Below, piece by piece: positions 1,878 through 24,004 of a stretch of DNA of 64,000 nucleotides. Origin of the DNA: Actinoplanes sp. NBC_00393 (GTDB taxonomy: Bacteria > Actinomycetota > Actinomycetes > Mycobacteriales > Micromonosporaceae); the NCBI RefSeq assembly GCF_036053395.1, contig NZ_CP107942.1, positions 4,244,501 to 4,308,500 on the forward strand, read 5' to 3'. The translations under genes and the position numbers were made by a program. Every line of letters begins with the position of its first letter. Positions within the stretch are counted from its first letter, which is position 1. Under the pieces are notes generated by a model. It saw nothing but the letters and a program-made list of their open reading frames with translations, did no database searches and was not told where the DNA came from.

Positions 1878-1941
1878 GGTACGGCAGCGATTATCACGGT
1901 GCCGGAAAGTACTCGCAGCCCGCTGTCAGCCCGCTGAGAAA

Positions 1942-2157: not shown

Positions 2158-2274
2158 GATTTCCCTGATGGTAGGGCGAGGTCTGCCGGGCCTGGACTCT
2201 ATCGTCTGAGCAGGTTGATCGAAACGGGAAAGTGCAGCCCTTACCTCTTTCGTGACGCAGACGAGGAGCACGTT

Positions 2275-4593: not shown

Positions 4594-4682
4594 GACGTGA
4601 TCCTTCCGGTCGCCGGGCGCATCTACAAGACCCATCGGGATGCTAGACAATGATCATGGCACTGGCATAGCGTGGGTGGCCT

Positions 4683-5834: not shown

Positions 5835-7129
5835 GCCGACCAGAAGAGCCGCACGAGTTCGGCTTCGAAACCCGCCAGCTGCACGCCGGCCAGCGGCCCG
5901 ACCCGAACACCGGCGCCCGCGCGGTGCCGATCTTCCAGACCACCAGCTACGTCTTCGAGGACCCGGAGTCCGCCGCGGCGTACTTCAATCTGCAGGAGTA
6001 CGGCAACACGTACTCGCGGATCATGAACCCGACGACCGCGGTGTTCGAGGAGCGGGTGGCGAACCTGGAGGGCGGCAGCGGCGCGGTCGCCTTCGCCAGT
6101 GGCATCGCCGCGCAGGCCGCCGCCCTGTTCACGCTGCTCGAGCCGGGTGACCACGTGGTGGCGTCGTCGGCGCTCTACGGCGGCACGGTCAACCAGCTCA
6201 AACACCTGCTGCGCAAGATGAACGTGGAGCTGACCTGGGTCGACCCGGACGACGCGGAGGCCTGGCGCAAGGCGGTCCGGGCCACCACCAAGGCGTTCTT
6301 CGGCGAGACCATCGGCAACCCGGCCGGCAACGTCCTGGACATCGAGACGGTCGCCGGGATCGCCCACGAGCACCGGCTGCCGCTGATCGTGGACAACACG
6401 TTCGCCACGCCGTACCTGTGCCGGCCGATCGAGTGGGGCGCCGACATCGTGGTGCACTCGGCGACCAAGTTCATCGGCGGGCACGGCACGAGCATCGGCG
6501 GTGTCGTGGTGGAGGCCGGCACGTTCGACTGGTCGAACGGGCGGTTCCCGGTGGTGGCGGATCCGTCGCCGGCGTACCACGGGCTGAAGTTCCACGAGAC
6601 GTTCGGCACCTACGGCTACCTGATGAAGCTGCGCGCCGAGACGCTGCGCGACCTGGGCGGGGCGCTGTCGCCGTTCAACGCGTTCCTGTTCCTGCAGGGT
6701 CTGGAGACGTTGTCGCTGCGGATGGAACGGCACGTCGCCAACGCCGTTCGGATCGCCGAGTTCCTGGAGGGACATCCGCTGGCGTCCAACGTCAGCTATC
6801 CCGGTCTGCCGAACAGCAGATATCGACCGTTGACCGATAAATACCTCAAGGATGGCGCCGGCGCGGTGTTCTCCTTCGACGTCTCCGGCGGCCGCCAGGG
6901 CGGCCAGGACCTGATCCGCGGGGTACGGCTGTGGTCGCACCTGGCCAACGTCGGCGACGCGAAGAGCCTGATCATCCACCCGGCCAGCACGACGCACCGT
7001 CAGCTGGGCGACGACGAGCTGCGGGCCGCGGGCGTCGGCCCGGGAACGGTACGGCTGTCGGTCGGCACCGAATCCGTGCAGGATCTGATCTGGGATCTCG
7101 AGCAGGCGTTCCGGGAGGTGGCCCGATGA
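5831..7129 (+). CDS. metY: O-acetylhomoserine aminocarboxypropyltransferase (sulfhydrylase)
   Basis: A 432-residue Cys/Met-metabolism PLP enzyme that makes homocysteine from O-acetylhomoserine and sulfide. Visible marks are FETRQLHAGQ at the N-terminus, the PLP Lys in HSATKFIGGHG, TYSRIMNPTT and the long MetY-type insertion with NGRFPVVADPSPAYHGLKFHE as separate pieces. The ATG chosen (5831) overlaps the metX stop by four bases; the longer upstream frame is inside metX. Together with metX it gives direct sulfhydrylation, bypassing cystathionine. Confidence 0.96.
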   Translation: MSRPEEPHEFGFETRQLHAGQRPDPNTGARAVPIFQTTSYVFEDPESAAAYFNLQEYGNTYSRIMNPTTAVFEERVANLEGGSGAVAFASGIAAQAAALFTLLEPGDHVVASSALYGGTVNQLKHLLRKMNVELTWVDPDDAEAWRKAVRATTKAFFGETIGNPAGNVLDIETVAGIAHEHRLPLIVDNTFATPYLCRPIEWGADIVVHSATKFIGGHGTSIGGVVVEAGTFDWSNGRFPVVADPSPAYHGLKFHETFGTYGYLMKLRAETLRDLGGALSPFNAFLFLQGLETLSLRMERHVANAVRIAEFLEGHPLASNVSYPGLPNSRYRPLTDKYLKDGAGAVFSFDVSGGRQGGQDLIRGVRLWSHLANVGDAKSLIIHPASTTHRQLGDDELRAAGVGPGTVRLSVGTESVQDLIWDLEQAFREVAR

Positions 7130-7608
7130 CCGATCTCGCGCGGTACCAGGACGCGCTGACCATCCAGCGGGTGCTGAACACGGCGAAGACCATCGCGATC
7201 GTCGGGTTGTCCGGCAACGAGCTGCGGGCCAGCTACTTCGTCGGCTACTACCTCAAGCGGCACGGCTACCGGGTGGTGCCGGTCAACCCGCGGGAGAAGG
7301 AGATCCTCGGCGAGACGTCGTATCCGAGCCTGTCCGACGTACCGATCCCGATCGACATGGTCAACGTCTTCCGCGCGCCCGACGCGCTGCCGCAGATCGC
7401 CCGGGAGTCGGTGGCGGCCGGCGCCGGCACGCTGTGGACCCAGTTCGGCGTGATCAACCAGGAGGGCGCGGACATCGCCGAGGCCGGCGGCCTGACCGTG
7501 ATCGTGGACCGCTGCCTCAAGGTGGAACACGCCCGTTACGTGGGCCGCATGCACTGGCTGGGCTTCAACACCCAGCGCATCACGTCGGTCCGCTCCGGCC
7601 TGCAGTAG
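7126..7608 (+). CDS. CoA-binding domain protein (YccU/CoA_binding_2 type)
   Basis: A 160-residue Rossmann-like protein of the CoA_binding_2 family. The glycine-rich nucleotide motif IAIVGLSGNELRASYFVG lies near residues 24-41, and the family's typical VNPREKEILGETSYPSL, VFRAPDALPQIA and VDRCLKVEHAR follow. ATG overlaps the metY stop (ATGA), so it is the third gene of the met operon. This gene often travels with O-acetylhomoserine sulfhydrylase in actinobacteria, which suggests a link to sulfur metabolism, but its activity is not established. Its last 29 bases overlap the convergent VOC gene. Confidence 0.88.
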   Translation: MTDLARYQDALTIQRVLNTAKTIAIVGLSGNELRASYFVGYYLKRHGYRVVPVNPREKEILGETSYPSLSDVPIPIDMVNVFRAPDALPQIARESVAAGAGTLWTQFGVINQEGADIAEAGGLTVIVDRCLKVEHARYVGRMHWLGFNTQRITSVRSGLQ

Positions 7609-7969
7609 GGCGATGCTCGACGAGGCCCACCAGGTTGCCCTCGGTGTCGCGCAGGAAGGCCTGCACCTCCTCGGTGCCGGCGGGCCCGAGCTGGTCGTCG
7701 CGGTGCGTGAAGATGACGTGCGGCTCCGACTCGACGGCGGTGCCGGCGGCGCGCATCCGCGCGATCACCGCGTCGACGTCCTCGACGAGGTAGTAGTGCA
7801 GCGCGGAGGGCGCCCCTTCCTCCAGCAGCAGGCGCTGCCCGTCGAGGTCGAAGAAGACCAGCCCCGGCGGGTCGAACGAGGCGACCGGCCCGCGGCCGAA
7901 CAGCTCGGCGTAGAAGGCGGTGGCACGCGGCAGGTCGTCAGCGTGCTGGGCAATCTGCACTGCGCGCAT
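7580..7969 (-). CDS. VOC (glyoxalase/bleomycin-resistance) family protein
   Basis: A 129-residue single-domain VOC protein. The sequence shows the beta-alpha-beta-beta-beta pattern: HADDLPRATAFYAELFGRGP at the start, YYLVEDVDAVIARMRAAGTAV in the middle and FLRDTEGNLVGLVEH at the end. Such proteins bind a metal and act as dioxygenases, isomerases or drug-binding proteins; the substrate here cannot be told. ATG at 7967-7969. It overlaps the CoA-binding gene tail to tail. Confidence 0.85.
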   Translation of the reverse strand: MRAVQIAQHADDLPRATAFYAELFGRGPVASFDPPGLVFFDLDGQRLLLEEGAPSALHYYLVEDVDAVIARMRAAGTAVESEPHVIFTHRDDQLGPAGTEEVQAFLRDTEGNLVGLVEHRPTAGRSGPT

Positions 7970-8028
7970 GATCAGTCTCGCTTTCCGTACCGGGTCGGTC
8001 TCACCCGCCCGGGGGCTTGAGGTACAAC

Positions 8029-9645
8029 ATGACGATGACTAAGGATGCACGGCCGACGGCCGACTTGCGCGAGGCAATCGACCAGGGCCGGACCGCGCTC
8101 GGGATCGAGTTGGGGTCCACCCGGATCAAGGCCGTGCTCACCGGCCCAGGCCACGAGGCGATCGCGGTCGGCAGCCACGACTGGGAGAACCAGTTCGTCG
8201 ACCGGACCTGGACCTACTCCCTGGAGGCGGTCTGGGCCGGCCTGCAGGACTGTTTCGCCTCGCTCGCCGAGGACGTGCGCCGCAAGCACAACACCGAGCT
8301 GCGTACGGTCGGCGCGCTCGGCGTCTCCGCGATGATGCACGGCTACCTGGCCTTCGACGGCGAGGGCGAGCTGCTGACGCCGTTCCGCACCTGGCGCAAC
8401 ACCAACACCGGTGACGCCTCCGAGCAGCTCAGTGAGCTGTTCGGCTACAACATCCCGCACCGCTGGAGCATCGCCCACCTGTACCAGGCCGTGCTCAACG
8501 GCGAGGAGCACGTCGGCCGGCTCGCCCACCTGACCACCCTGGCCGGGTACGTGCACTGGAAGCTCACCGGCCGCCAGGTGCTCGGTGTCGGCGACGCCAG
8601 CGGCATGTTCCCGATCGACATCGCGACCGGCGGCTACGACGCCCGGATGCTGGGCCAGTTCGACGAGCTCGCCGCCGGCCGGGTGCCGCTGAAGCTGGCC
8701 GAGCTGCTGCCGGCCGTGCTGCCCGCCGGTGAACCGGCCGGCACGCTCACCGAGGAGGGCGCGCGGCTGCTCGACCCGAGCGGCGCGCTGCAGCCCGGCG
8801 CCGCGGTGTGCCCGCCCGAGGGCGACGCCGGCACCGGCATGGTCGCCACCAACTCGGTGGCCCGCCGCACCGGCAACGTCAGCGCCGGCACCAGCATCTT
8901 CGCGATGATCGTGCTCGACCGTGAGCTGAGCCGGATGCACCCGGAGATCGACCTGGTCACCACCCCGGCCGGCGATCTCGTGGCGATGGTGCACTGCAAC
9001 AACGGCGCGAGTGAGCTGAACTCCTGGGCCGGCCTGTTCGCCGAGTTCGCCGCCGCGCTCGGCGTCGACAAGGACAGCAACACGATCTTCGAGACGCTGT
9101 TCCGCTCGGCGCTGAACGGCGCGCCCGACGGCGGTGGCCTGATGGCCTTCAACAACCTGTCCGGCGAGCCGATCACCAAGCTGCACGAGGGCCGCCCGCT
9201 GTTCCTGCGCGTACCGGGCAGCTCGCTCAACCTGGCCACGTTCATGCGCACCCAGCTGTACGCCGCCCTGGCCACCCTGCGCATCGGCATGGACGTGCTG
9301 CAGAAGGCCGAGTCGGTGCAGCTGGACCGGATGTTCGCGCACGGCGGCCTGTTCAAGACCGAGGGCGTGGCCCAGAAGCTGCTGGCCGCCGCGATCAACA
9401 CCCCGGTGTCGGTCGGCAACCTCGCCTCCGAGGGCGGCGCGTGGGGCATCGCGGTGCTCGCCGCGTTCCTCACCGCCCGCACCCCCGGGCAGAGCCTGGA
9501 CGACTTCCTGACCACATCGGTGTTCGCCGGCGCGCAGCTGGACACCGCCGACCCGGACCAGGCGGACGTCGAGGGCTTCAACGCGTTCATGGAGCGTTAC
9601 GTCGCCGCCCTGCCGGTGCAGCAGGCAGCCGTCGACCACAGCTGA
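8029..9645 (+). CDS. FGGY-family carbohydrate kinase
   Basis: A 538-residue sugar kinase of the FGGY family (xylulokinase/ribulokinase relatives) that phosphorylates a ketose or polyol with ATP. The N-terminal phosphate-binding strand [13 protein letters not shown], the RTWRNTNT segment and the C-terminal [12 protein letters not shown] block are present. The ATG at 8029 follows GAGG by five bases and was preferred to an in-frame TTG at 8017. No sugar transporter, isomerase or aldolase is adjacent, so the substrate is open; in other actinobacteria this type lies with L-arabinose-type genes. A strong 13-bp hairpin follows the stop. Confidence 0.88.
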
Positions 9646-11430: not shown

Positions 11431-12987
11431 GTGGAGAACCCTGCCGATCATGCGGGCGAGGCCGACGCCGATCTGTGGCAGCTGGCCGGGCTGCCCGGTG
11501 GGCTGATCGAGGCGAGCTATCTCACCCACCGTCAGCACGCCGCGCAGTACCGGTTGATCGTCGACGTGCTGCTCGCCCAGCAGCAGCACACCCTGACCGG
11601 GATCGCGGCGGCCGACCTTCCCGGCCTGCTGCGCGAGCACATCCTGCGGGCCGGCGCCGACCCGGGTGTGGTCGACGATCCGGCATTTCACCTCAAGGCG
11701 CGGATGGCCGACCTGAAACGGTGGCAGGTCGTCCACATCTTCCAGGACCGGGTCACCCGCGACGCCGACTTCGTCCTCGACTTCGACCGCTACCAGCTGA
11801 CCGAGACCGCCGCCCAGCTGCACCGGGCGGTGCTGGCCCTCGGTGAGGACGTGGCCTCCGGCGCGGCGGCCACCCTCGCGCCCGGGGTGCTGACCGCGCA
11901 GCTCGCGGCCCTGTCCGCGGCCGCCGGCAACGATCCGGTGGCGGCCGCGGCGGCCTGGTCGGTGATCCAGACGACGTACCGGGCGATGGCCGACGCCGCC
12001 GCCAGCTGGCAGGCCCGCCTCGCCGGCGCGCTGGCCGGCGCCCCTGACCAGCGCAAGGTCACCGTCGTGCAGGAGACGCTGCGGCGCTACGTCGACATGT
12101 GGGGCGCCGGGGTCGACACCCACTCCGACGCCATCACCGAGCTGGTGACCGGGCTCGCCGCGGTCAGCACCGGGCAGTGGCGCCGGGTCGCGGTGCACAC
12201 CCTCGGCGCCTCCGCCGACGACGCGGCCATCGACGAGCTGACCGGCTCCTACCTGCGCACCCTGGCGACGCTGCGCAACTGGTTCGACGGCCCGGACTGC
12301 CAGGCCCGGCGGCTGCGCCGGCAGATGCGCGACACGATCCGGCCGCTGCTGAGCAGCCAGCGGGTGCTCGCGGCGGTCGGCGGGCACGTGTCCCGGCGCG
12401 CCGAGCTGCTGCGCCTGGCCACCGGCATCGAGGCGGCGCCCGGCGAGGACGGGGCCTGGCAGCTGTGGTGCGCGGCCACCGGCCTGTTCTCGGCGCGGCA
12501 CCTGCCCGGCGTCGCGCCGGCGCCGGCCGGCAACCCGGGTGGGCTGTCGTTCTGGGAGGCCGAGCCGGTCGCCGTCGAGGCCCGGCTACGCCGGCAGGGG
12601 CCGAAGGCGGCCACCGGCGGCAACCCGGCCCGGATCACCGACCGCGGCGCCGCCCGCCGCGCGGCCCGCGACCTGTCGGCCCGGCTGCGCGACGAGGCGG
12701 CCGGCACCGAGGCCCGGGTGCTGGCCCGCTCCGGGCTGCCGCTGTCGCAGTGGCGCGAGGTCACCGCCGCCGAGCTGGACCTGCTGTTGCTGCTGCTCGG
12801 CGCGGTCAACACGGCCCGCCCGGACGCGGCCGGTGTCCGCAGCACGGTCAGCGACGACGCCCGCTGGTCGTTGCGCGCCGACCCGGCGCCCGACGGCGCG
12901 CCGTCCGCGGTCCTGCACACCCCCGACGGGCGGCTCGTGCACCCGGACATCCGGCTGCACATCGAACCCGCGGGGAGCCTCGGATGA
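11431..12987 (+). CDS. jetA: Wadjet subunit JetA (DUF2397, TIGR02677 type)
   Basis: A 518-residue DUF2397 protein, the kleisin-like subunit of Wadjet, an SMC-type complex that recognises and cleaves small circular DNA. The N-terminus has the family's YLTHRQHAAQYRLIVDVLL segment and the winged-helix part with LKARMADLKRWQVV; the middle is long and helical; the end carries RWSLRADPAPDGAPSAVLHT and PDIRLHIE. GTG at 11431 follows GAGGGGG; longer frames upstream read through intergenic DNA. Its stop overlaps jetB (ATGA). About 190 bases upstream lack a gene and should hold the promoter. Family recognition is from memory of these sequences. Confidence 0.88.
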   Translation: MENPADHAGEADADLWQLAGLPGGLIEASYLTHRQHAAQYRLIVDVLLAQQQHTLTGIAAADLPGLLREHILRAGADPGVVDDPAFHLKARMADLKRWQVVHIFQDRVTRDADFVLDFDRYQLTETAAQLHRAVLALGEDVASGAAATLAPGVLTAQLAALSAAAGNDPVAAAAAWSVIQTTYRAMADAAASWQARLAGALAGAPDQRKVTVVQETLRRYVDMWGAGVDTHSDAITELVTGLAAVSTGQWRRVAVHTLGASADDAAIDELTGSYLRTLATLRNWFDGPDCQARRLRRQMRDTIRPLLSSQRVLAAVGGHVSRRAELLRLATGIEAAPGEDGAWQLWCAATGLFSARHLPGVAPAPAGNPGGLSFWEAEPVAVEARLRRQGPKAATGGNPARITDRGAARRAARDLSARLRDEAAGTEARVLARSGLPLSQWREVTAAELDLLLLLLGAVNTARPDAAGVRSTVSDDARWSLRADPAPDGAPSAVLHTPDGRLVHPDIRLHIEPAGSLG

Positions 12988-14147
12988 GCACCACCACGGA
13001 CGTACGGGAGGCCCAGCAGGCGTTCCTCGGCCTGCTGGCCCGTCCCCTGGTCACCCCGGCCACCGACGCGGCGCTGTACCGGCAGGTCGTGCAGCGCCAG
13101 CAGCTGGTCACCGAGTTCGCCCGCCGGGTCGGCTACCGCATCCAGCGGGTCGGGCACGCGGTGCGCCTGATCCGCGTACCGATCGGCGGCCGGGTCACCA
13201 CCCCGGCGCGGCCCGCCGAGGCGCCGGAACGCCGGCTGCTGTCGCTGGCCTGCCGGCTCGCCGCCTGCTGCGAGGAGATCTCCGGCGCGGTCACCCTGCA
13301 ACGGCTGTCCGACATGGTCCGCGACCTGTCGGCGGCGCCCGGCGTGCAGCTGTCCGGCTACGACCCGGACGACCGGGTGCAGCGCAAACAGCTGCGCGAC
13401 GCCGCCGCGTTCCTCGCCGGGTGGGGGGTGCTGCGGCGGCGGACCAGTGACGAGAAACTGCTCGACGAGTGGACCGAGAACGGCGCCGGGCCGGGCGCCG
13501 GCTACGAGGTCGACCGGGACGCGCTGCTGCTGATGACCAGCCCCGACGTGCTCGGCATGGCACTGCACCCGGAGCCCGCCGACGAGGACGAGGAGCTGAG
13601 CGGGACCCGGACCCTGCATCACCTGCGGGCGCTGCTGGAGACCCCGCAGGTGGCGTACGCCGACCTGCCCGAAGCCGACGCCGAGGCGCTGCGGACGGCC
13701 CGCGGCCTGCGCGCCGGCGACGTGGCGCAGATGACCGGTGGCACCCTGGAGGCCCGCGCCGAGGGCCTGCTGCTGGTGCTCACCGACGACGAGCAGACCC
13801 CGCCCACGGTGGCCGAGTGGCCGCGCCCGCGGGCCGCCGACTGGGTGGCCCTGCTCGCCGCCGACCAGGCCGGCCGGGACGGCACCCGCCTCCCCGACGG
13901 CACCGTGTACCTGACCAACGCCGAGGTCGACGCGGTGATCGACTACCTGGTCGACGACCGCGGCGAATACATGAACAAGCCGCAGAAGACCGTGCCCGGT
14001 GTCGTACGCCGCGACGCCGAGACCCTGCTGACCGAACTCGGTCTGCTGACCGTCGCCGTGGACGGCTCGTGGACGCTCGCCGCCGCGGCCGGGCGGTACC
14101 GGGACCCGACGATCACCTACACCGAAACTCCGGAGCACACCCGATGA
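12984..14147 (+). CDS. jetB: Wadjet subunit JetB (DUF2398, TIGR02678 type)
   Basis: A 387-residue DUF2398 protein, the winged-helix KITE-like partner that sits between the SMC heads and the kleisin. Signs are the REAQQAFLGLLARPLVTP start, the FARRVGYRIQRVGHAVRL wing segment, and a second helix-turn-helix-like part near LQRLSDMVRDL. ATG at 12984 overlaps the jetA stop and its own stop overlaps jetC (ATGA), so the three genes form a tight translational unit. Length agrees with the family. Confidence 0.88.
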   Translation: MSTTTDVREAQQAFLGLLARPLVTPATDAALYRQVVQRQQLVTEFARRVGYRIQRVGHAVRLIRVPIGGRVTTPARPAEAPERRLLSLACRLAACCEEISGAVTLQRLSDMVRDLSAAPGVQLSGYDPDDRVQRKQLRDAAAFLAGWGVLRRRTSDEKLLDEWTENGAGPGAGYEVDRDALLLMTSPDVLGMALHPEPADEDEELSGTRTLHHLRALLETPQVAYADLPEADAEALRTARGLRAGDVAQMTGGTLEARAEGLLLVLTDDEQTPPTVAEWPRPRAADWVALLAADQAGRDGTRLPDGTVYLTNAEVDAVIDYLVDDRGEYMNKPQKTVPGVVRRDAETLLTELGLLTVAVDGSWTLAAAAGRYRDPTITYTETPEHTR

Positions 14148-17100
14148 CGTCCCCGCAGCAGGTCGGCCCCGACAGCTCCGACGCGCAGCTGGCCGCCTGG
14201 CGTGACGCGGTCACCCAGGCCTCGCTGCCCGAACCGACCCGCACCCGCTGGCAGGCCTCGCGGGCCGGGCTGGTGAACCTGTGGGAGTTCGACATCAGCG
14301 AGTACTGGTTCGCCGACGGGCGCGCCCAGTTCGTCGGCGCGAACCAGTCCGGCAAGTCGACGCTGATGGCGCTGACCACCCTGACCATGCTGGCCGGCGC
14401 CCTCGACCGGCAGTACATCGACACGTTCGGCCAGTCGGACAAGTCGTTCCGCTACTACGTGGAGCCCACCGACGACCCGCGCGACCGGCGGGAGACGACC
14501 GCGCTGACCAACCGGGGCTGGGCGTGGGTCGAGTTCGCCCGGCTCACCGGGGACGGCGAGCCGGAGTACTTCACCGCGCTGCTGTACGCGCAGGCCAAGC
14601 GCGGCGTCAGCCACATGCCGCCGACGTGGATCATCTGCCGGGGCAAGGCCCGGGTCCGCGACGGCATCGACCTGGCCGTGGGCCGGGCCGCGGTCGAGCC
14701 GCGGGACCTGCACGGCATCGACGGGCTGACGGTGATGGAGAACGGTCGCAAGTACGCGGACCGGATCGCCACCGAGCTGTTCGGGTTCTCCGACACCGAC
14801 CGGTTCTCGACGGTGCTGGAGATGCTGAAGGTGCTGCGGACCCCGCACCTGGGCCAGCGCCTGGACCCGGACTGGTTCACCCAGCAGATCCGGGCCGCTC
14901 TGCCGCCGGTTGCGCGTACCGAAGTGGAGGAGTTGGCCGCCGGCTGGCAGCAGCTCGAGCAGCTCAGCCGCGACCGGGACGACGCCGCGGCGGCCCGCGA
15001 CGCGGTCGGCCTCTACCTGAGCAAGGCGTGGCGGCCGTGGGCGGACGCGCTGCTGCGTGCCCGCGCGGACGCGCTGATCGCCGCGGACCATGCCGTCACG
15101 GAGGCCGAGGCTGCCGTCGCGTCGGCCGATGCGGCGCACGACCGGGCGCATCAGGACCTGACCGGGGAGAACGGCCGCACCGAGCAGCTGGAGACCCAGG
15201 GCCGCAACGCGCAGGCCGCGCTCACTCAACTGCTGCGGTCCGACGCCTATCGCGACGCCGCCGGGCGGACCGAGAACGCGGAGCGGCTGCGCCGCGAGAC
15301 CGAGGAGGCGCAGAAGCAGCGGGAGGCGGCCCAGCGGCGGCTTGACCGGGTACGCGCGGACCAGGACCGGGCCGAGACCGTGCACCGCAGCGCGATCGGC
15401 CAGCTGGAGTCGGCGCAGAGCGCAGTCGGGCAGTCCGCTTCGCACGCGACCGGGGCCGTGACTGCAGCCGGGCTCGGCGAGGAGGCGACCGGGTGGGTCA
15501 CCGGCGGCGACGTCGACCGGATCGACGCTGCCGTCACCGAACGCCGAACCCGGATCGGGGCGTTGCGCCGGCTGCTGCGCGACGCCGCGGGCACCCACTC
15601 GTCGTGGCAGAGCACCGACCGGATCGCCGAGCAGGCCCGTACCGAATGGCAGTCCCGGGTGGCCACCGCCCGGATCGCGCAGACCCAGGTCAGCGACGCG
15701 CTGCAGCAGCTGTCGGACGGCCTGGAGCGGTGGGCGGCCCGCCTCGGCGCCGACGCGCCGGACGGGGAGCTGCGCGACCGGTGGGTGCAGGAGGTGACCG
15801 GGCAGACCAGCACGGCCCGGCCTCGTGAGCAGCTGCGGATGTTGGTCACCCGGCAGTGGCTCGACCCGGCGATCGCTCCGCTGACCGAGCAGGTCGCGAC
15901 GCTGCGGGCGGCGGCTGCGGCCGCGCAGCAACGGGCGGCCGACGCCGACCGGGACGCCGACGAGCTGGGCCTGGCCGGGGAGCCGCAGGCACCGATGCCG
16001 CACGGCTGGGCCCGCCGCGAGCGGCCGGCCTTCCCCGGGCCGGAGGGGGCGCCGCTGTGGCGGCTGCTCGACCCGGTCGACGGCCTGGCCGACGGCGTGC
16101 TCGATCACGTCGAGGCGGCGCTGGCCGCGGCCGGACTGCTCGATGCCTGGGTCACGCCGGACGGGCTGTGGGCCGCCGACCGGGACGGCACGGACGTCAC
16201 GGTCACCGCTGGAATCTCGGCGGCCACCGCGCCGGCGGCGAAGTCGGCGGCGAATCATCAGCCGGCGTCCGCGCCGGCCGCGAACCGCCAGCCGGCCTCC
16301 GCGCTGGCGGCGATTCTGCAGCCGGCCGAGGATGCCGGGGCGATGACCGCGACGGTCACCGGACTGCTGGCGAGCATCGGGTACACCCGGGACGGCGGAG
16401 AGCTGAGCGGCGAGATCGCCGTGGCCGGGGACGGGCGGTGGCGGACCGCGGCGCTGGCCGGGCGGGCCGGGCGCGCTGAACACGGCGCCGAGCTGATCGG
16501 GACCGCTGCGCGCACCCACGCCCGGCGCCGCCGCATCGACGAGTTGCGGCAGGAGGCCGAGCGGCAGCGGCGCGAGGCCGAAGCGCTGGCCGCGCAGGTC
16601 ACCACTGCCACCAACAAGATGACCATGCTGCGTACGGCCGCCGACTCCTGCCCCGACGACGCGGGTGTGGTGGCCGCCGCGAACGAGTACAACGCCGCGG
16701 TCACCGAGCGGGACCGTGCCCACACCGCCCACGTCCAGGCGCAGGAGAAGGCGGTCGCCGGCAAACGCGCTGCCGACGACGCCGCGGCCGCTGCGACCGG
16801 CTACGCCGCCGAGCACCGGCTGCCCGCCACCGACGAGCAGCTCGACGCAGTCGGCACGGCCGTGGACACTGCCGCCCGCGCGGGCGCCGACCTGAGGCTG
16901 GCCCTGCGCGAGCGCGACACCGCACAGCGTGAGGTGACCGGCGCGCTCGCCGGGGTCGAGGCCGCCGCGGCAGCCGTCGAAGAGGCCGACGACGCGGACC
17001 GCGACGCCGCCGAGACCGCAGCCCGGCTGCGGATCGAGGCCGCCGAGGCAGCCGCGTCGATCGACCGGGACGACCACGCCCAGCTGGAACGGGCCGCCGA

Positions 17101-18568
17101 GCTGGAGAAGGAGATCGAGACCCTCAACCGGTCCGCCTCCGCCAGCCGCAAACGCGGTCTCACGCTGGCCGCGCACACCTCGACCGCCCGCAACCTCACC
17201 GAGACACGCCGCCAGGAGCACACCGCCGCGCTCGCGCACCGCGACGCCGCGGTGGCCGACTGGTGGGTGCCCGTCGACGCCGGCATCGCCGCCGCCCGCA
17301 ACCTGCCCGAGCCGACCGACCGCGCCCTGCCCGAGACGGCCGAACATGACCTTCCCGAGCCGGCCGAACGTGATCTGCCCGAGCCGGCCGAACGTGAGCT
17401 GCCCGAGCCGGGCGGGCGGGACCTGGCTGCCGCGCTGGCCCAGGCCCGTGTTGCGGTTCAGGCGCTGCGGCCGCCGTCCTGGCCGGACTCCGCCGAGGAG
17501 CGGGCCCGGCGGGTCGGTGCGGCGCAGCACCGGGCGTTCACCAACCCGCGTTTCGAGCTGCAGGCCAAGCTGGAGGCGTCCGGCGGCCGGTCGGTGATCG
17601 CCGTAGATGCCGACGAGATCACCCCGCTGCCGGCCGTCATGCTGGTCGTCGACGCGTCCGGCACCCAGCTCACCCCGCCCGCCGCGATCGAGCACCTCGA
17701 CGAACTGGTCACCCAACTGTCGGCCAGCCACGACGACAAGCTGCACCAGATGTACACCGAGTTGCTGTCCTCGACGTTCATCAACCACCTCGCCGACCGG
17801 CTGGGCCGGGTGGTCGAGCTGCTCAGGGACGTCAACACGGTCCTGGACCGGCACCCGACCGGGGTCAACAAGACCAAGCTGCGGCTGATCCGGCGGCCCG
17901 CCGACGGGCAGCGGTACGGCTTCAACGTGCTCGACGCCCTCGAGAAGGGAACCATCGACTCGGCGGACTCGCAGGAGCAGATGCGGCTGTTCCTCGGCGA
18001 CCGGCTGCGCGAGGCCCAGGAGTCCGGCCTGGTCGGCACCGACGACTGGGTGGAGCACCTGGCCCGGCTGCTGGACTACCGGGCCTGGTTCGACGTGGTT
18101 CCGGAGTTCCGGATCGGCGACAGCAAGTGGCGGCCGCTGACCAAGCAGGTGCACTCGGTCGACTCCGGCGGCGGCAAGGTGGTCACCCTGTTGCAGCCGC
18201 TGCTGGCCACCCTGGTCACCCTGTTCGCCGAGTCACCCGATGCGCCGCGGCCGTTGTGGCTGGACGAGGCGTTCACCGGCGTCGACACCCCGAACCGGTC
18301 GACGATGCTGCGCATGATGGTCGACTTCGACTTCGACTTCCTGCTGGCCGGCCCGTCGGCGCTGGTCACGGCCGCCCAGGTGCCGTCGGCCGCGGTCTGG
18401 ACCGTCTCGCGCGCGCCTGCGCCGCTGCCCGGTGTCGACCTGTCGCTGATGTTGTGGACCGGTCAGGCGCTGGAGCACGTCCCGGTCGGTGACACCGCTG
18501 TTCAGGTGCTCACCGCGACCCGGCCGGCCGATGATCTGCCCGATCTGTTCAGCGAGCCCGGAGTTTGA
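14144..18568 (+). CDS. jetC: Wadjet SMC-like ATPase JetC (TIGR02680 type)
   Basis: A 1474-residue SMC/MukB-like ATPase, the DNA-loop-extruding motor of Wadjet. Walker A is FVGANQSGKSTLMAL near residues 63-77. Long Ala/Arg/Glu-rich coiled coils run from about 270 to 1080. The signature-like VDSGGGKVVTLLQP lies near 1340, and Walker B RPLWLDEAFTGVD near 1370. The protein looks complete and intact. Two low-complexity inserts are unusual: a QPASA-repeat stretch around 16228-16345 and five 8-residue LPEPAER repeats at 17303-17422. No jetD follows: the next gene is a STAS protein after 29 bases. Confidence 0.9.
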   Translation: MTSPQQVGPDSSDAQLAAWRDAVTQASLPEPTRTRWQASRAGLVNLWEFDISEYWFADGRAQFVGANQSGKSTLMALTTLTMLAGALDRQYIDTFGQSDKSFRYYVEPTDDPRDRRETTALTNRGWAWVEFARLTGDGEPEYFTALLYAQAKRGVSHMPPTWIICRGKARVRDGIDLAVGRAAVEPRDLHGIDGLTVMENGRKYADRIATELFGFSDTDRFSTVLEMLKVLRTPHLGQRLDPDWFTQQIRAALPPVARTEVEELAAGWQQLEQLSRDRDDAAAARDAVGLYLSKAWRPWADALLRARADALIAADHAVTEAEAAVASADAAHDRAHQDLTGENGRTEQLETQGRNAQAALTQLLRSDAYRDAAGRTENAERLRRETEEAQKQREAAQRRLDRVRADQDRAETVHRSAIGQLESAQSAVGQSASHATGAVTAAGLGEEATGWVTGGDVDRIDAAVTERRTRIGALRRLLRDAAGTHSSWQSTDRIAEQARTEWQSRVATARIAQTQVSDALQQLSDGLERWAARLGADAPDGELRDRWVQEVTGQTSTARPREQLRMLVTRQWLDPAIAPLTEQVATLRAAAAAAQQRAADADRDADELGLAGEPQAPMPHGWARRERPAFPGPEGAPLWRLLDPVDGLADGVLDHVEAALAAAGLLDAWVTPDGLWAADRDGTDVTVTAGISAATAPAAKSAANHQPASAPAANRQPASALAAILQPAEDAGAMTATVTGLLASIGYTRDGGELSGEIAVAGDGRWRTAALAGRAGRAEHGAELIGTAARTHARRRRIDELRQEAERQRREAEALAAQVTTATNKMTMLRTAADSCPDDAGVVAAANEYNAAVTERDRAHTAHVQAQEKAVAGKRAADDAAAAATGYAAEHRLPATDEQLDAVGTAVDTAARAGADLRLALRERDTAQREVTGALAGVEAAAAAVEEADDADRDAAETAARLRIEAAEAAASIDRDDHAQLERAAELEKEIETLNRSASASRKRGLTLAAHTSTARNLTETRRQEHTAALAHRDAAVADWWVPVDAGIAAARNLPEPTDRALPETAEHDLPEPAERDLPEPAERELPEPGGRDLAAALAQARVAVQALRPPSWPDSAEERARRVGAAQHRAFTNPRFELQAKLEASGGRSVIAVDADEITPLPAVMLVVDASGTQLTPPAAIEHLDELVTQLSASHDDKLHQMYTELLSSTFINHLADRLGRVVELLRDVNTVLDRHPTGVNKTKLRLIRRPADGQRYGFNVLDALEKGTIDSADSQEQMRLFLGDRLREAQESGLVGTDDWVEHLARLLDYRAWFDVVPEFRIGDSKWRPLTKQVHSVDSGGGKVVTLLQPLLATLVTLFAESPDAPRPLWLDEAFTGVDTPNRSTMLRMMVDFDFDFLLAGPSALVTAAQVPSAAVWTVSRAPAPLPGVDLSLMLWTGQALEHVPVGDTAVQVLTATRPADDLPDLFSEPGV
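17303..17422 (+). repeat. Five 24-bp tandem repeats inside jetC
   Basis: Five consecutive 24-base units, each starting CTGCCCGAG or CTTCCCGAG, encode LPEPTDRA, LPETAEHD, LPEPAERD, LPEPAERE and LPEPGGRD (residues 1054-1093). They sit in the distal part of the coiled-coil region, so they add a proline-rich, charged linker to an SMC arm. Units three and four are almost identical, pointing to recent duplication. Confidence 0.9.
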
Positions 18569-18597: not shown

Positions 18598-18930
18598 ATG
18601 TCGAATTTGGCGGCAGTGACGTTCCAGGAGGACGCCGACAGCGGGGTGCTGTCGGCAACGATCAGCGGTGAGCTCGACCTCGCCGAGTCGGACGAGATCC
18701 GTGACAGCCTCGCCGCTGCCGCGGCGAACACGTCGTGCCGGTACCTGCTGGTGGACGTCAGCGACGTGACCCTGATCGACTCGTACGCTATGGGCGCCCT
18801 GGTCAGCGCCCGCAACAGCGCCGCGAGTGTCGGCGTCACCCTGACCCTGGTGGACCCGTCCCCGCCGGTCCGCAAGGCGATCGAGGTCACCGGCCTGGCC
18901 GACGTCTTCGGTTTGACCGGGCCGCGCTGA
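18598..18930 (+). CDS. STAS-domain anti-anti-sigma factor
   Basis: A 110-residue single STAS domain of the SpoIIAA/RsbV type, which binds an anti-sigma kinase and releases a sigma factor. The phosphorylatable Ser lies in DVTLIDSYAMGALVSA near residue 62, and the strand SATISGELDLAESDEIRD is typical. ATG at 18598. It starts 29 bases after jetC on the same strand and so may be cotranscribed with it, though the two functions have no known link. Its stop lies two bases from the end of the convergent ACP gene. Confidence 0.9.
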   Translation: MSNLAAVTFQEDADSGVLSATISGELDLAESDEIRDSLAAAAANTSCRYLLVDVSDVTLIDSYAMGALVSARNSAASVGVTLTLVDPSPPVRKAIEVTGLADVFGLTGPR

Positions 18931-18932
18931 GC

Positions 18933-19202
18933 TCAACCGGCCCGCAGTTTGCTGTCGACGAGGGCGGCGAGGCTGCCGAGCGTCTCGAACACCTCGGCGT
19001 TGATCTCGTCGTCGTCCATGGTGATGCCCAGCTCGCTGTGCAGGGCCTCGACCAGTTCGAGCACTGCCAGCGAGTCCATCTCCGGCAGTCCGCCGAGCAG
19101 CGGTGTCGACGCGTCGATCGTGTCCGCCCGGTCCTCGACGCCGAGGGTGGTGACCAGGACGGCCTTCACCCGGCCGACCGTCTCGTCGTTGAGCACGTCC
19201 AT
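18933..19202 (-). CDS. Acyl carrier protein
   Basis: An 89-residue acyl carrier protein with the phosphopantetheine attachment motif GLPEMDSLAVLELVEAL (Ser near residue 39). Acidic helices on both sides fit the ACP fold. ATG at 19200-19202 follows GAGAGGAACGAG. It is the last gene of the GNAT-ligase-decarboxylase-ACP operon and presumably carries the substrate while the decarboxylase acts, as BtrI does in butirosin or VinL in vicenistatin biosynthesis. It is not the fatty-acid ACP, since no fab genes are nearby. Confidence 0.92.
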   Translation of the reverse strand: MDVLNDETVGRVKAVLVTTLGVEDRADTIDASTPLLGGLPEMDSLAVLELVEALHSELGITMDDDEINAEVFETLGSLAALVDSKLRAG

Positions 19203-19216
19203 CTCGTTCCTCTCGT

Positions 19217-20437
19217 TCAGACCAGCACTTCGGCCGGGGCAGGGTGGCTCAGGAACGCGGTCGGGCTGGCAGTCAGCCCGTACGCCCCGGCCTGGAACAC
19301 CACGATCAGGTCGCCCGGCTCGGCGTGCGGCAGGGCCACCTTGTCGCCGAGCAGGTCGAGCGGGGTGCACAGCGAGCCGACGACGGTGACCTTCCCGGCG
19401 GCTTCCTGGTCCATCCGGGTGCCGACGGCCAGCGGATAGTTGCGGCGGATCACCTGCCCGAAGTTGCCGGAGGCGGCGAGCTGGTGGTGCAGGCCGCCGT
19501 CGACGACGAGGTAGGTCGTGCCGCGCGACTCCTTACGGTCGACGACCCGGGTGACGTAGACGCCGCACTCGCCGACCAGGTACCGCCCGAGTTCCACGGC
19601 GACCCGGGCCCGCGGCAGGCGGGGCCTGATCCGGTCGGCCAGCAGCGCGGCCAGGTTGTCGCTGATCGGGCGCAGGTCCAGTGGCCGGTCGCCGTCGAAG
19701 TACGGGATGCCGAAGCCGCCGCCGAGGTTGAGGTAGCGGAACGGTTCCGGGGCGGCCTCGGCGAGCCGCAGCGCCAGGTCGACGGTGTTGCGCTGCGCCT
19801 GGCACAGGATGTCGGCGTCGAGGCACTGCGAGCCGGCGAAGATGTGCAGGCCGAGCACGTCGAGGTCGGCGGCGGCGAGGTCCTTGAGCAGGGCGGGCAC
19901 CTGTTCGCAGTCGACGCCGAACTGCTGCGGGCCGCCGCCCATCCGCATCCCGGAGCCCTTGACCGCGAAGTCCGGATTGACCCGCACGGCCACCTGCGGG
20001 CGCAGGCCGAGCCGCTCCCCCGCCGCGATCACCCGGGCTGCCTCGCCGGCCGACTCCATCTCGATGGTCACCCCGGCCGCGACGGCCTGGCGCAGCTCGG
20101 CGTCGGTCTTGCCCGGCCCGGCGAAGCTGATCCGCTGGGCCGGGATGGTGGTGTCCAGCGCCGTGCGCATCTCGCCGGCCGACGCCACGTCCAGCGCGTC
20201 GACCAGGCCGCTGAGGTGCTGCACGACCGCGGGCATCGGGTTGGCCTTGACCGCGTACCCGAGCTCGACGGCGGCCGGCAGCACGGACCGGACCTGGTCG
20301 ACCCGCGCGGTGAGCAGCGCCCGGTCGTAGGCGAAGAACGGGGTGCCGCCGACCCGCTCGGCCAGCCGGTCGACCGGCACACCGCCGACCGTCAGACGTC
20401 CGCCGCTGCGGCCGAACGCGGCGATCGTGCTACTCAT
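19217..20437 (-). CDS. PLP-dependent decarboxylase, fold III (exosortase-A-associated/BtrK-like)
   Basis: A 406-residue decarboxylase of the DapDC/LysA family. The PLP Lys is in LGYAVKANPMPAV near residue 58; other blocks are RISFAGPGKTDAELR, VRVNPDFAVKGSGMRMGGG followed by QQFGVD, GLHIFAGSQC and LNLGGGFGIPYF. The active-site Cys comes in VVGSLCTPLDLL. The wording is closest to the decarboxylase that accompanies exosortase A (TIGR03099 type, from memory) and to BtrK/VinO enzymes that decarboxylate an aminoacyl-ACP. ATG at 20435-20437 overlaps the ligase stop (ATGA). Confidence 0.9.
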   Translation of the reverse strand: MSSTIAAFGRSGGRLTVGGVPVDRLAERVGGTPFFAYDRALLTARVDQVRSVLPAAVELGYAVKANPMPAVVQHLSGLVDALDVASAGEMRTALDTTIPAQRISFAGPGKTDAELRQAVAAGVTIEMESAGEAARVIAAGERLGLRPQVAVRVNPDFAVKGSGMRMGGGPQQFGVDCEQVPALLKDLAAADLDVLGLHIFAGSQCLDADILCQAQRNTVDLALRLAEAAPEPFRYLNLGGGFGIPYFDGDRPLDLRPISDNLAALLADRIRPRLPRARVAVELGRYLVGECGVYVTRVVDRKESRGTTYLVVDGGLHHQLAASGNFGQVIRRNYPLAVGTRMDQEAAGKVTVVGSLCTPLDLLGDKVALPHAEPGDLIVVFQAGAYGLTASPTAFLSHPAPAEVLV

Positions 20438-21993
20438 GCGGTGACCTCCCGGCGCAGCGTGGTGCGGTCGAACTTGCCGTTGGGTGAGCGGGGAAGCTCG
20501 TCGCGGACCAGGACGGTCTGCGGCACCATGTACAGCGGCAGCCGGCGGCGCAGCTGTTTGACCAGGCCGGCGGTGTCGACCTCGGCGCCCGGCCGGGGGC
20601 TGACGACCAGGGCGACGTGCTGGCCGAGCCGGTCGTCGTCGACGCCGAGCGCCACCACGTCGCGGATCAGGCCGGTGTCGTAGACGGCCTCCTCGATCTC
20701 GGTGGGACTGACCCGGTAGCCGGACGTCTTGATCATTTCGTCGTTGCGGCCCACGAAGTACAGGAAGCCGTCCTCGTCGCGGACCACGATGTCGCCGGAC
20801 CAGACCGCGATCTCGCTCAGGCACAGCGCGGCGTCGCGTCCCGGCGCCGGTCGGAAGCGGGCGGCGGTGGCCTCCGGGGCGTTCCAGTAGCCCTGCGCCA
20901 CCAGGGCGCCGCGGTGCACCAGCTCGCCGGGCTCACCCGCGGCGCACTCGGTGCCGTCGGGGCGCACGACCATCAGCTCCACGTTCGGGATCGCCTTACC
21001 GATCGAGTCGGGCCGGCGGTCCACCTGCGCCGGGTCGAGGTAGGTCGACCGGAACGCCTCGGTCAACCCGTACATCAAGAAGGGTCTGGCCTGGGGGAAC
21101 AGCTGGCGCAAGCGGTCCAGGACGGGCCGCGGCATGCGGCCGCCGGTGTTGGCGAAATAGCGCAGGCGGCCTGCCGCCTGCGGCGGCCAGTCGTGCTCGG
21201 CCAGCTGGATCCAGAGCGGCGGCACGCAGGTCAGGCCGGTAACACCATGCCGGGAGCAGGCGGCCACGACGTCCGCGGCGCCGAGATAATTGATCAGTAC
21301 GACGTGCGCGCCCACGCTGAACCCGGTGGTCAACTGGCTGAACCCGGCGTCGAAGCTGAGCGGCAGCGCCGCCGCGATCGCGTCGTCGGCGGTGTTGCCG
21401 AGGTATCCGCTGACGCTTTCGGCGCCGGCGATCAGATTCCGGTGCGACAGCACGACGCCCTTGGGCCGGCCCGTGCTGCCGGAGGTGTAGAAGATCGCCG
21501 CGAGGTCGGCGTCGATCCCGTCGGCCAGCTCGGCTTCCCCGGTCAGGTCGTCCCAGGTCACGACGGTGTAGTGGGCGTCGGACGGGACCGCGCGCGGCGT
21601 GCCGAGGACCACGACGTGGCGGATCGACTTGCACCGTTCGAGTTCGGCGGTGAGCAGCGTGAGCCGCTCCGGGGTGGTGACCAGGGCGGTGACCGTGCAG
21701 TCGGTGAGGATGTGGCCGACCTGCTCGGCGCGCAGCAGCGGGTTGGCCGGGACGACGACCGCGCCGGCCGCGGAGGTTGCGAAGATCGCGGTCACGGTCT
21801 CGATGCGCTTGTCGGCGTACACGGCGATCCGCTCGCCACGCGCGATGCCGAGGCTGCGCAGGCCCTGCGCGGCCCCGCGCACCCGGCCCCACAGCTCGGC
21901 GTAGCTGACCGTAATGTCCTTCACCGTCAGGGCGGGACGGTCGCCGTGCCGGTGGGCGCTGCCAGCGAGCAGATGATGCAGTTGGGTAGGCAC
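20434..21993 (-). CDS. AMP-forming acyl/aminoacyl ligase (exosortase-A-associated type)
   Basis: A 519-residue ANL-superfamily adenylating enzyme that would activate an acid as acyl-AMP and load it on the neighbouring ACP. Core motifs: YTSGSTGRPKGVVLSH near 170, MYGLTEAFRSTYLDP near 320, the ATP-binding Asp in VWSGDIVVRDEDGF near 400, and the C-terminal Lys in RSPNGKFDRTTL. The block after YGLTEAF (SIGKAIPN, PGELVHRGALVAQGYW) matches what I recall of the ligase paired with exosortase A decarboxylase (TIGR03098). Thirteen bases separate it from the GNAT gene upstream. Confidence 0.9.
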   Translation of the reverse strand: MPTQLHHLLAGSAHRHGDRPALTVKDITVSYAELWGRVRGAAQGLRSLGIARGERIAVYADKRIETVTAIFATSAAGAVVVPANPLLRAEQVGHILTDCTVTALVTTPERLTLLTAELERCKSIRHVVVLGTPRAVPSDAHYTVVTWDDLTGEAELADGIDADLAAIFYTSGSTGRPKGVVLSHRNLIAGAESVSGYLGNTADDAIAAALPLSFDAGFSQLTTGFSVGAHVVLINYLGAADVVAACSRHGVTGLTCVPPLWIQLAEHDWPPQAAGRLRYFANTGGRMPRPVLDRLRQLFPQARPFLMYGLTEAFRSTYLDPAQVDRRPDSIGKAIPNVELMVVRPDGTECAAGEPGELVHRGALVAQGYWNAPEATAARFRPAPGRDAALCLSEIAVWSGDIVVRDEDGFLYFVGRNDEMIKTSGYRVSPTEIEEAVYDTGLIRDVVALGVDDDRLGQHVALVVSPRPGAEVDTAGLVKQLRRRLPLYMVPQTVLVRDELPRSPNGKFDRTTLRREVTA

Positions 21994-22006
21994 AGCCCGG
22001 TCCCTT

Positions 22007-22873
22007 TCACGTGGCGGTCGTCACACAGGCCAGCTCGCTGTACAGATAGTCGATCTGGTCGGGCTGCAGCTTCGGGCTGCGGAACATCTTGCGGCGCTGG
22101 GACGGCACGGCCACGGACCCGCGCGGCCGGAACCCGGCGAGCCTCGGCTCCACGAGGGTGGCGGGAATCCCGTACCGCAGCAGCAGGTGCGCGCAGAACG
22201 GCCGGAACAGCCGGCGGAACAACACCGGGTCGCTGACGTGGATCAGCGAGGCGAACAGCGGCAGATTCCTCGGGTGATCGCGCCGGAACATCACGTAGCA
22301 CCAGTCGTCGCCGGCGCTGAGCACCACGTGCCGGGCCGCCCGGGCCCGCCGGTGATCGCGGTATCGCTCCAGCTCGGCGCCGGTGAGGAGGCGCTCCAGA
22401 TCGCGGGGGTCGGAACTGACCCGGCCGCGGGCCGACAACCAGGGCAGATTCGGTACGGCCACCGCTTCCGCGTCGAGGAACCGGAACCCCAGCCGCGTGT
22501 TGATCTTGATGGCGTTGCCGCTCGGGGTCAGGTCGGTGAACGTGTAATCCGGCTGATCAAGTAGCGCCTTCAACAGCCGGACACTGTGGATCCGGCGGTC
22601 GGGCAGCACACACCAGCCGGCCAGGTTGCAGAACGACTCCTCGGCGCCGCCGATCGTGCGCGTCGAGTAGAACGCCAGGTAGGCGCCGACGACCGGATCC
22701 GGCCGGCCGTCGTCGACGAGCATGAATCCATGGTTGGGCGCCGGCCCCTGCCAGGGCGGCGTCATCGACTCGGCCCACTCGGCCGGTGACTGGCGTGCGT
22801 TGAGGTGCCGGTGCAGGAACTCCGCCACCGCGGGCACGTCAGCCGACAGGATCGGGGCGACGCGGACACTCAT
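22007..22873 (-). CDS. GNAT-like acyltransferase heading the ACP operon
   Basis: A 288-residue protein that looks like an acyltransferase of the GNAT/FemAB-like fold: VRVAPILSADVPAVAEFLHR at the start, GFMLVDDGRPDPVVGAYLAF, NLAGWCVLPDRRIHSVRLLK where the acyl-CoA loop should be, and SGNAIKINTRLGF. Likely it transfers an acyl or aminoacyl group to or from the ACP-bound product. The start chosen is ATG at 22871-22873 after GGAGGG; an in-frame ATG at 22957 would add 28 poorly conserved-looking residues. It is the first gene of the operon. Family assignment is by pattern only. Confidence 0.7.
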   Translation of the reverse strand: MSVRVAPILSADVPAVAEFLHRHLNARQSPAEWAESMTPPWQGPAPNHGFMLVDDGRPDPVVGAYLAFYSTRTIGGAEESFCNLAGWCVLPDRRIHSVRLLKALLDQPDYTFTDLTPSGNAIKINTRLGFRFLDAEAVAVPNLPWLSARGRVSSDPRDLERLLTGAELERYRDHRRARAARHVVLSAGDDWCYVMFRRDHPRNLPLFASLIHVSDPVLFRRLFRPFCAHLLLRYGIPATLVEPRLAGFRPRGSVAVPSQRRKMFRSPKLQPDQIDYLYSELACVTTAT

Positions 22874-23371: not shown

Positions 23372-24004
23372 ATGCAACCGCAACCACCGTGCCGCACCAC
23401 GCACACCTTCACCGAGGCCGGCAACCCGCTCGTCTACGACCGCTGGGGCACCGCCGGCCGGCCCGTCCTGCTGCTGCACAGCCTGCTGCTCGACCGCACC
23501 CTGTGGTGGCCGGTCGCCGCCGAACTCGCCGGATTCTGCACGGTCATCGCCCCCGACCTGCCCGGCCACGGCGAGACGCCACCAGCCGGCGGCTGCACGC
23601 CCGACCACGTCGCCGCCCAACTCGCGTTGCTGCTGCACTCCGTGCGCGCGAACCTGGCGCCGGTGGTGGTCGCGCACGCCAACACGGGCTGCCTCGCCGC
23701 CGCGCTCGCCGAGAACTACGCGACCCACGCAGCCACGATCATCGACGGTACGGGCGGGCGGACCGGCAACGACGTCGAAGCCGTGCTGGCCGAGGCCGGC
23801 ATCGAGCAGGTGCCGTCGATCTACCGGCCGTTCGCGGTGCCCCGCCGGGATCCGGTGCTGCTCAGCGCGTACCGATCCTGGCTCGAACTCTCCCCCTGGC
23901 GCCAGCCGGTGCCGCTGACCGGCTGGTCCGATCCCGAACCGCGAACCTGCACGCCGCTGACCGATCCGGAAGGGCTCGCCGGCCGCATCCGGGCCATGCT
24001 CTGA
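23372..24004 (+). CDS. Alpha/beta-hydrolase-fold protein lacking the Ser nucleophile
   Basis: A 210-residue alpha/beta-hydrolase-like protein. The oxyanion strand VLLLHSLLLDRTLWWPVA and the APDLPGHGETPPAGG segment are typical of the fold, but the nucleophile elbow reads VVVAHANTGCLAAAL where GxSxG is expected, so Ser is replaced by Asn. The C-terminal part is short and I see no clear catalytic Asp-His pair. It may be a non-catalytic relative. ATG at 23372 follows GGAAG. The 150 bases after the stop hold only a possible 34-residue ORF (24021-24125) that I would not call. Confidence 0.6.
   Translation: MQPQPPCRTTHTFTEAGNPLVYDRWGTAGRPVLLLHSLLLDRTLWWPVAAELAGFCTVIAPDLPGHGETPPAGGCTPDHVAAQLALLLHSVRANLAPVVVAHANTGCLAAALAENYATHAATIIDGTGGRTGNDVEAVLAEAGIEQVPSIYRPFAVPRRDPVLLSAYRSWLELSPWRQPVPLTGWSDPEPRTCTPLTDPEGLAGRIRAML

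Follow-up and report, generated by a model that had tools for sequence, protein, structure and literature searches.

The locus considered here lies in a 64,000-nucleotide stretch (the window) of the genome of Actinoplanes sp. NBC_00393 (contig NZ_CP107942.1, positions 4,244,501 to 4,308,500), and consists of four tightly packed genes on the minus strand. In order, these encode a 288-residue GNAT-like protein (22007..22873), putatively an acyltransferase that takes an aminoacyl group off a carrier; a 519-residue AMP-forming ligase with a GTG start (20434..21993), putatively an amino acid:acyl carrier protein ligase; a 406-residue pyridoxal phosphate (PLP)-dependent decarboxylase (19217..20437), putatively acting on the aminoacylated carrier; and an 89-residue acyl carrier protein (ACP; 18933..19202). 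Thirteen bases separate the GNAT stop from the ligase start, ligase and decarboxylase genes overlap by 4 bases, and 14 bases lie between decarboxylase and ACP. This spacing is operon-like, and the four genes form a single operon, confirming the chain with a GNAT-like member that an earlier note on this DNA had described. All four reading frames are open and key residues are retained. No promoter-like sites were found, and the one terminator-like site does not exceed the count in shuffled sequence.

The ligase matches TIGR03098 at 745.5 bits (cut-off 592.35; profile positions 2-516 of 517) and the decarboxylase matches TIGR03099 at 588.5 bits (cut-off 478.45; positions 3-398 of 398), which identifies them as the exosortase A-associated pair that the earlier note had named; NCBIfam classes both models as hypothetical equivalogs. 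Each is the sole protein of its genome above its cut-off, and because the next matches in the genome reach only 253.8 and 241 bits, respectively, the two are not generic paralogues. The profiles did not favor the ordinary identities that the earlier note had set against its own reading, a plain fatty acyl-CoA ligase (best 312 bits, under the cut-off of 476) or an ornithine/lysine decarboxylase (75.7 bits, cut-off 700), and a diaminopimelate decarboxylase was likewise rejected (241.5 bits, cut-off 297.9). It could be argued that an ordinary acyl-CoA ligase and a free amino-acid decarboxylase have become neighbors by chance, as the Pfam domains are the generic AMP-binding and Orn_DAP_Arg. However, the curated cut-offs are passed, the genome's own paralogues score far lower, the nearest structure is that of BtrK, and the operon is conserved together with an ACP, and we regard this explanation as very improbable.

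The closest match of the decarboxylase in the PDB is the L-glutamyl-[BtrI ACP] decarboxylase BtrK (E 7e-74), which leads by a wide margin (252 bits versus 155 for the next other protein). BtrK converts BtrI-S-glutamate to BtrI-S-gamma-aminobutyrate (PMC7857480). The presumed PLP lysine of the window decarboxylase is K64 in YAVKAN, and a CTPLD motif is also present; KAN and CTPxD are found in all 41 members of the family. CTPxD was considered as a marker of ACP substrates and ruled out, as a paralogue in the same genome (L010) carries CTPRD. In the decarboxylase tree, which took in 14 of the 22 members of a deeper family (f18, see below) and omitted the other 8 together with L011, L012 and L112 (the same gene as L138), the window copy groups with other Micromonosporaceae and G310 (support 96/86). 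The ACP matches PF00550 at 32.1 bits (cut-off 20.8), with S44 (EMDSL) as the presumed phosphopantetheine serine; all 30 members of its family (F2) keep this motif. The 89 residues of the ACP compare with 87 in the BtrI carrier. The butirosin system differs in that BtrJ is an ATP-grasp ligase whereas the window ligase is an AMP-binding (ANL) enzyme, and aminoglycoside genes, for which no search was made, were not seen near the window set.

The ligase contains the motif YGLTEAFRSTYLDP, as the earlier note had stated, and its pocket can be read from an Asp, D215 in LSFDAG, and an Arg, R315 in TEAFRSTYL. By alignment, both pocket motifs (the amino-site Asp and the loop Arg after Phe) are kept in 39 of 39 decarboxylase-adjacent ligases, and the Arg-bearing loop is shorter than in ordinary adenylation domains by 1 residue (MAFFT) or 2 (phmmer against gramicidin synthase). 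For VinN, the vicenistatin ligase that loads 3-methylaspartate, a review describes a pocket shaped by a loop shortened by 1 residue with K330/R331, plus D230 (PMC11253843). We infer that the window-ligase Arg is the equivalent of VinN R331, because related ligases read TECKR (10 of 42 outer rows); the window loop has F-R where VinN has K330/R331. Against the window ligase, VinN (PDB 3wvn) scores 202 bits, less than the 263 bits of gramicidin synthase. The VinN/VinL/VinO and PacE/PacC/PacF sets resemble the window set in combining a stand-alone ligase and a stand-alone ACP with a PLP decarboxylase, which in the window set would likewise act on the carrier, and in the shortened pocket loop with Arg. 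The Pac set is predicted to load and decarboxylate 3-methylaspartate on its ACP (PMC10662134).

At E 0.001, neither Pfam nor NCBIfam models match the GNAT-like protein. Its AlphaFold model (pLDDT 91.1, pTM 0.88) resembles two-domain GNATs and N-myristoyltransferase across residues 1-281, and on this model the protein is a tandem GNAT fold. The usual GNAT pyrophosphate loop is Q/RxxGxG/A; 19 of the 21 proteins in this family have R/Qxx[S/G]x[R/K] at the corresponding position, an alteration that weakly fits a donor other than CoA. The FeeM type, reportedly linked to PEP-CTERM/exosortase loci by Craig, Cherry and Brady in 2011, may offer a precedent for connecting an N-acyltransferase of GNAT fold with an ACP and with exosortase loci. 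FeeM-type enzymes make long-chain N-acyl amino acids; they differ from the window GNAT in that the latter matches no NCBIfam model.

We take the exosortase A (XrtA)-associated set to comprise the TIGR03098 ligase, the TIGR03099 decarboxylase, an ACP and the hydrolases TIGR03100/TIGR03101. The window set resembles it in the two profile matches; moreover, many proteobacterial loci have an ACP of the same family near the pair, and glycosyltransferase/flippase families F4, F5 or F7 are shared by some of them. The window set differs in that its ACP shares a strand with ligase and decarboxylase, in the added tandem-GNAT gene, and in lacking an exosortase or XrtA FemAB over the cut-off. The earlier note saw no exosortase, and this holds for the entire genome (PF09721, cut-off 25.7, best 23.7 bits). 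Among actinobacteria, no exosortase exceeded the cut-off in the 23 genomes tested that carry the set or a relative, nor in 15 further genomes, whereas one was present in all 5 proteobacterial genomes bearing the same ligase and decarboxylase; a divergent exosortase could escape the PF09721 model, and matches below the cut-off occur in the window genome (G000) and in G146 (20.9 bits). XrtA FemAB (TIGR03019, cut-off 260.35) shows the same pattern: all 5 proteobacterial genomes exceed the cut-off and none of the 16 actinobacterial genomes does, the best score among the latter being 59.9 bits. An alpha/beta hydrolase at 23372-24004 was considered as exosortase hydrolase 1 or 2 and rejected, with no TIGR03100/TIGR03101 match at E 1e-10. 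Since both enzymes are named after the exosortase A system, and the set lies far from glycan genes here, one could suppose that it is the remnant of an exosortase A locus and no longer serves any pathway. Four open frames, retained key residues and a gene order conserved in several actinobacterial families all speak against decay, and leave this idea with hardly any credit.

The set recurs well beyond the window. For the ligase, relatives were taken from named genomes, with the best 80 of 118 confirmed loci kept; decarboxylase relatives were sought in 150 same-family genomes at E 1e-100 and found in 10. We counted 24 actinobacterial decarboxylase loci, L026 being dropped as the same place as L033; loci with a ligase and no adjacent decarboxylase gene, among them L035, L037, L047, L053 and L067, fall outside this count, and the family clustering omitted L069-L111 and window genes outside 8-40 kb. 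Ligase adjoins decarboxylase in 23 of the 24 loci, and GNAT, ligase and decarboxylase are contiguous in 18. The ACP is directly next in 15, so that the four genes do co-occur elsewhere fully in a row, a point on which the earlier note had made its reading depend. Among the 18, the ACP lies one gene off in two Mycobacterium loci (L036, L040) and is present only as a reading frame in L038. In a 19th locus (L050) a GNAT reading frame adjoins the ligase and was merged into a longer gene by the gene caller, and in two Microbacterium loci the GNAT is found at the same locus, 9-10 genes away; L029, L030 and L031 are decarboxylase loci without GNAT. Viewed across genomes, a GNAT profile (E 1e-10) finds 7 of the 150 family genomes, all of them within the 10 that bear the decarboxylase (hypergeometric P 4e-10, or 6e-9 without the window genome, kinship ignored); the three decarboxylase-bearing genomes without GNAT are G120, G009 and G123. 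In a 396-genome sample of the phylum, which includes the window genome, GNAT occurs in 3 genomes and TIGR03099 is exceeded in 2, both with GNAT. In a literature search that took in few subscription papers, TIGR03098 or TIGR03099 was nowhere mentioned, and no paper joined exosortase with a pyridoxal-dependent decarboxylase, or exosortase A with an acyl-CoA ligase and exopolysaccharide, or aminoacyl-ACP with polysaccharide, decarboxylase and acyltransferase. Because most subscription papers lie outside that scope, the set may already have been published.

Genes of polysaccharide type are frequent companions of the set. At least two such families are present in 16 of the 21 loci holding both GNAT and decarboxylase, within the stretch read; 20 loci were counted by family and L138 was judged by its own BLAST table, which shows no such family. 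The families, each judged on one or two members, are a MOP flippase-like protein (F5; 93 bits, under the cut-off of 273), a Wzy_C polymerase (F12), a polyprenyl glycosylphosphotransferase (F30), glycosyltransferases (F4, F7, F11, F14, F20, F63), a polysaccharide-deacetylase-like protein (F8), a UDP-glucose/GDP-mannose dehydrogenase (F28), PseC-like aminotransferases (F10) and a NeuD-like acetyltransferase (F9). F5 or F12 occurs in 10 of the 20 counted loci, both in 4. In Actinoplanes sandaracinus (L032), the genes after the set are F6, F18, F17 (an MFS family, judged from the L023 member), a pair of aminotransferase genes, a NeuD acetyltransferase gene (190.4 bits against a cut-off of 160.8), and genes for an epimerase/dehydratase and for a GFO/IDH/MocA dehydrogenase; together they look like a diamino-sugar nucleotide pathway.

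The earlier note had reported no polysaccharide cluster. That stands for the 17 of 59 called window genes whose products were scanned against Pfam, but fails for most relatives and for the genome itself, which carries at 11.28-11.31 Mb the cluster found next to the set in sister Actinoplanes. A glycosyltransferase search of the genome gave only a weak match (28%), and reading around it exposed the cluster through other genes; the stretch around another weak match (L156) added nothing. Best matches to the sister clusters are 90% for F32, 91% for F26, 90% and 89% for F10, 83% for F9, 86% for F17, 74-77% for F18, 65% for F5 and 62% for F25, with relatives of F12, F13, F20 and F30 alongside. A BLAST comparison at E 0.001 with the open frames across 11.258-11.336 Mb gave no counterpart to any of the four window proteins, and the window set lies 7.0 Mb away on the single contig, or less if the chromosome is circular. 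We also observed that F25, a large protein whose L023 member (4589-8374) contains a DMFA2_C domain and DUF4082 in three stretches, is also found in L027, L032, L033 and at 11.294-11.298 Mb of the window genome, that is, near the set or polysaccharide genes in Actinoplanes.

Taken together, these findings make us lean toward an exosortase-free aminoacyl-ACP pathway, in which an amino acid would be loaded and decarboxylated before the GNAT transfers it, perhaps onto a surface-glycan amino sugar. A PLP decarboxylase requires an alpha-amino acid with a free carboxylate. An amino acid loaded through its alpha-carboxyl could not be decarboxylated, and the side-chain carboxylate of Asp, Glu or a relative should therefore be the one that is loaded, which is also how the Btr and Vin systems work. 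According to this hypothesis the ligase, judged by homology and active-site residues, would adenylate the side-chain carboxylate of an acidic amino acid, most likely L-Asp or L-Glu, and place it on the ACP phosphopantetheine with alpha-amino and alpha-carboxyl groups free; 3-methylaspartate may also be the substrate. The decarboxylase, by its homology to BtrK, would then strip the alpha-carboxylate on the carrier and yield beta-alanyl-ACP or gamma-aminobutyryl-ACP. We consider these first two steps quite likely. The tandem GNAT would transfer the omega-aminoacyl group to an amine, a step to which fold, operon linkage and co-occurrence lend a fair degree of likelihood. The acceptor would most likely be an amino sugar of a surface polysaccharide, because the set in A. 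sandaracinus adjoins the diamino-sugar-nucleotide-like genes; in the present genome the set would act in trans, some 7 Mb from the cluster. Genome context places a glycan acceptor at barely better than even chances. The interpretation of the earlier note is partly supported and appears right in outline, with all of the chemistry and the acceptor being what we infer: the amino acid that it left general is narrowed to the Asp/Glu type, bound by the side chain, and the detachment from polysaccharide genes that it described does not hold up.

Several observations weigh against this explanation. The ligase pocket was read by alignment without VinN in it. Fewer than two polysaccharide-type families are seen in 5 of the 21 loci (the window, L025, L034, L038 and L138). 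We dropped an argument that two aminotransferases against one acetyltransferase in sister clusters would leave a free amine; the cluster in the window genome ends with a second F9 (NeuD-like) gene, 69% identical to that of L048, and because of this gene such a count is no proof of a free amine. The window set matches its sisters at 52-57% (GNAT), 67-69% (ligase) and 74-78% (decarboxylase), whereas cluster genes are closer (F17 79-86%, F10a 86-89%), and because of this greater divergence the window set may be a separately acquired copy. Faster drift of the set is also possible, since the set likewise diverges more between the sisters L032 and L023 (GNAT at 64%, ligase at 75% and decarboxylase at 79%) than F17 (86%) and F10 (85%) do; L032 and L033 show no excess divergence of the set (82-89%, versus 79-91% for five of six cluster genes and 39% for the sixth, F26). 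The set may have moved and then drifted, or the resident copy may have given way to a distant one. Furthermore, G197 and G654 have the GNAT and no ligase above the TIGR03098 cut-off, L035 has GNAT, ligase and ACP without a decarboxylase gene, and around the second GNAT copies in G146 (L168, 9275-10495) and G029 (L169, 9817-10722; 62% identical to the window GNAT) neither a ligase nor a decarboxylase was matched within the 19.5 kb read. In view of these cases, the link between the GNAT and this acyl source is not a strict one.

Also to be set against a glycan role are the GNAT-less trios of L029 and L030 (G120 and G009), which lie near polyketide synthase genes and are probably sources of aminoacyl starter units. 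In these two loci we noted that ligase and decarboxylase are accompanied by a different carrier-like protein (F35). They point to a small-molecule pathway, in which the trio would make an aminoacyl starter or side chain of a secreted natural product that the GNAT caps or transfers, as in butirosin or the macrolactams. Their decarboxylases are the nearest that lack a GNAT and fall within the 100/97 clade of all GNAT-bearing decarboxylases, which split off weakly (84/38); in addition, the layout of L031 (G123), with two ligases, two F62 genes and a decarboxylase, recalls vicenistatin-type starter clusters. In the window, however, no polyketide or peptide synthetase was seen among the 17 scanned products and no second TIGR03098 match at E 0.001 within the span, unlike the Vin set, and in most GNAT-bearing loci (16/21) polysaccharide-type genes are found instead; no search was aimed at a VinK-type acyltransferase or a glutamate mutase. 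On balance we think a small-molecule product unlikely here, and continue to favor the exosortase-free pathway directed at a glycan.

G197, the third GNAT genome of the phylum sample, has neither TIGR03098 nor an exosortase over the cut-off, and in its locus L139 the GNAT lies between a hydrolase-1-like gene and an ACP. A single run there (193-9506) holds E1/E2 dehydrogenase-like, two carrier-like, hydrolase-1/2-like, tandem-GNAT and asparagine-synthase-like genes. In the class of a Propionivibrio metagenome-assembled genome, the GNAT was found in 1 of 274 genomes, there without a ligase over the cut-off.

A second alternative arises from deeper relatives. The f18 decarboxylases occur in 22 of the 396 phylum genomes, all of one family, and score 407-424 bits, under the TIGR03099 cut-off. 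In all four f18 loci read (L140-L143, from G232, G362, G403 and G393), ligase and decarboxylase genes stand together with one for a carrier-like protein, recognized by BLAST only, and one for a GNAT-like protein of 394-442 residues, the Pfam GNAT matches of which are barely above the cut-off; exosortase was over the cut-off in none of the 13 of 22 genomes tested. In L141, the sole locus with neighbors scanned, VanW, beta-lactamase-fold and MurJ genes then follow, and this is possibly a second exosortase-free form aimed at the cell wall. Together with an undecaprenyl phosphate translocase-like gene that precedes the GNAT in L138, it raises the idea that peptidoglycan, a wall teichoic-type polymer or a lipid receives the aminoacyl group, with a logic like that of Dlt D-alanylation. 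The f18 set nevertheless forms a separate clade (100/99), its GNAT is only weakly related to the window GNAT (hhalign probability 74%, 125 columns), and the window genes scanned include no wall biosynthesis gene next to the set. A wall target therefore seems to us improbable, to about the same degree as a natural product.

The surroundings of the set deserve brief mention. A STAS-domain protein (18598..18930, plus strand; PF01740, 67.9 bits) converges on the ACP gene, and is a neighbor outside the proposed pathway; its family (F31) also adjoins the ACP in L025 (10183-10518) and L028 (10531-10866), which makes three Micromonosporaceae loci including the window. The Wadjet type II genes JetA, JetB and JetC lie at 11431-18568 (727, 543 and 609 bits with PADLOC models), and JetD was not matched among the seven window proteins tested. 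No tRNA genes were found within the window.

In conclusion, the exosortase-free set is probably an aminoacyl-carrier pathway built around the ligase/decarboxylase/ACP trio. A bolder version, which we offer tentatively and would not expect to hold in full, is an unnamed glycan-decoration pathway, in which beta-alanyl or gamma-aminobutyryl groups built on an ACP would be attached by the tandem GNAT to a diamino-sugar amine in Wzx/Wzy-type polysaccharides. If this is true, the trio of exosortase A loci would serve exopolysaccharide rather than protein sorting, and, judging from distribution, the GNAT and XrtA FemAB would fill the same role in two lineages. The pair is found with an ACP, without an exosortase over the cut-off and often by polysaccharide genes, which suggests that its function is separable from protein sorting and perhaps belongs to glycan chemistry. 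Both enzyme families are named only for a protein-sorting system found in other bacteria. The exosortase-free set is small, with four genes, and a sister cluster suggests an acceptor; it would thus be a simple place to learn what these enzymes do.

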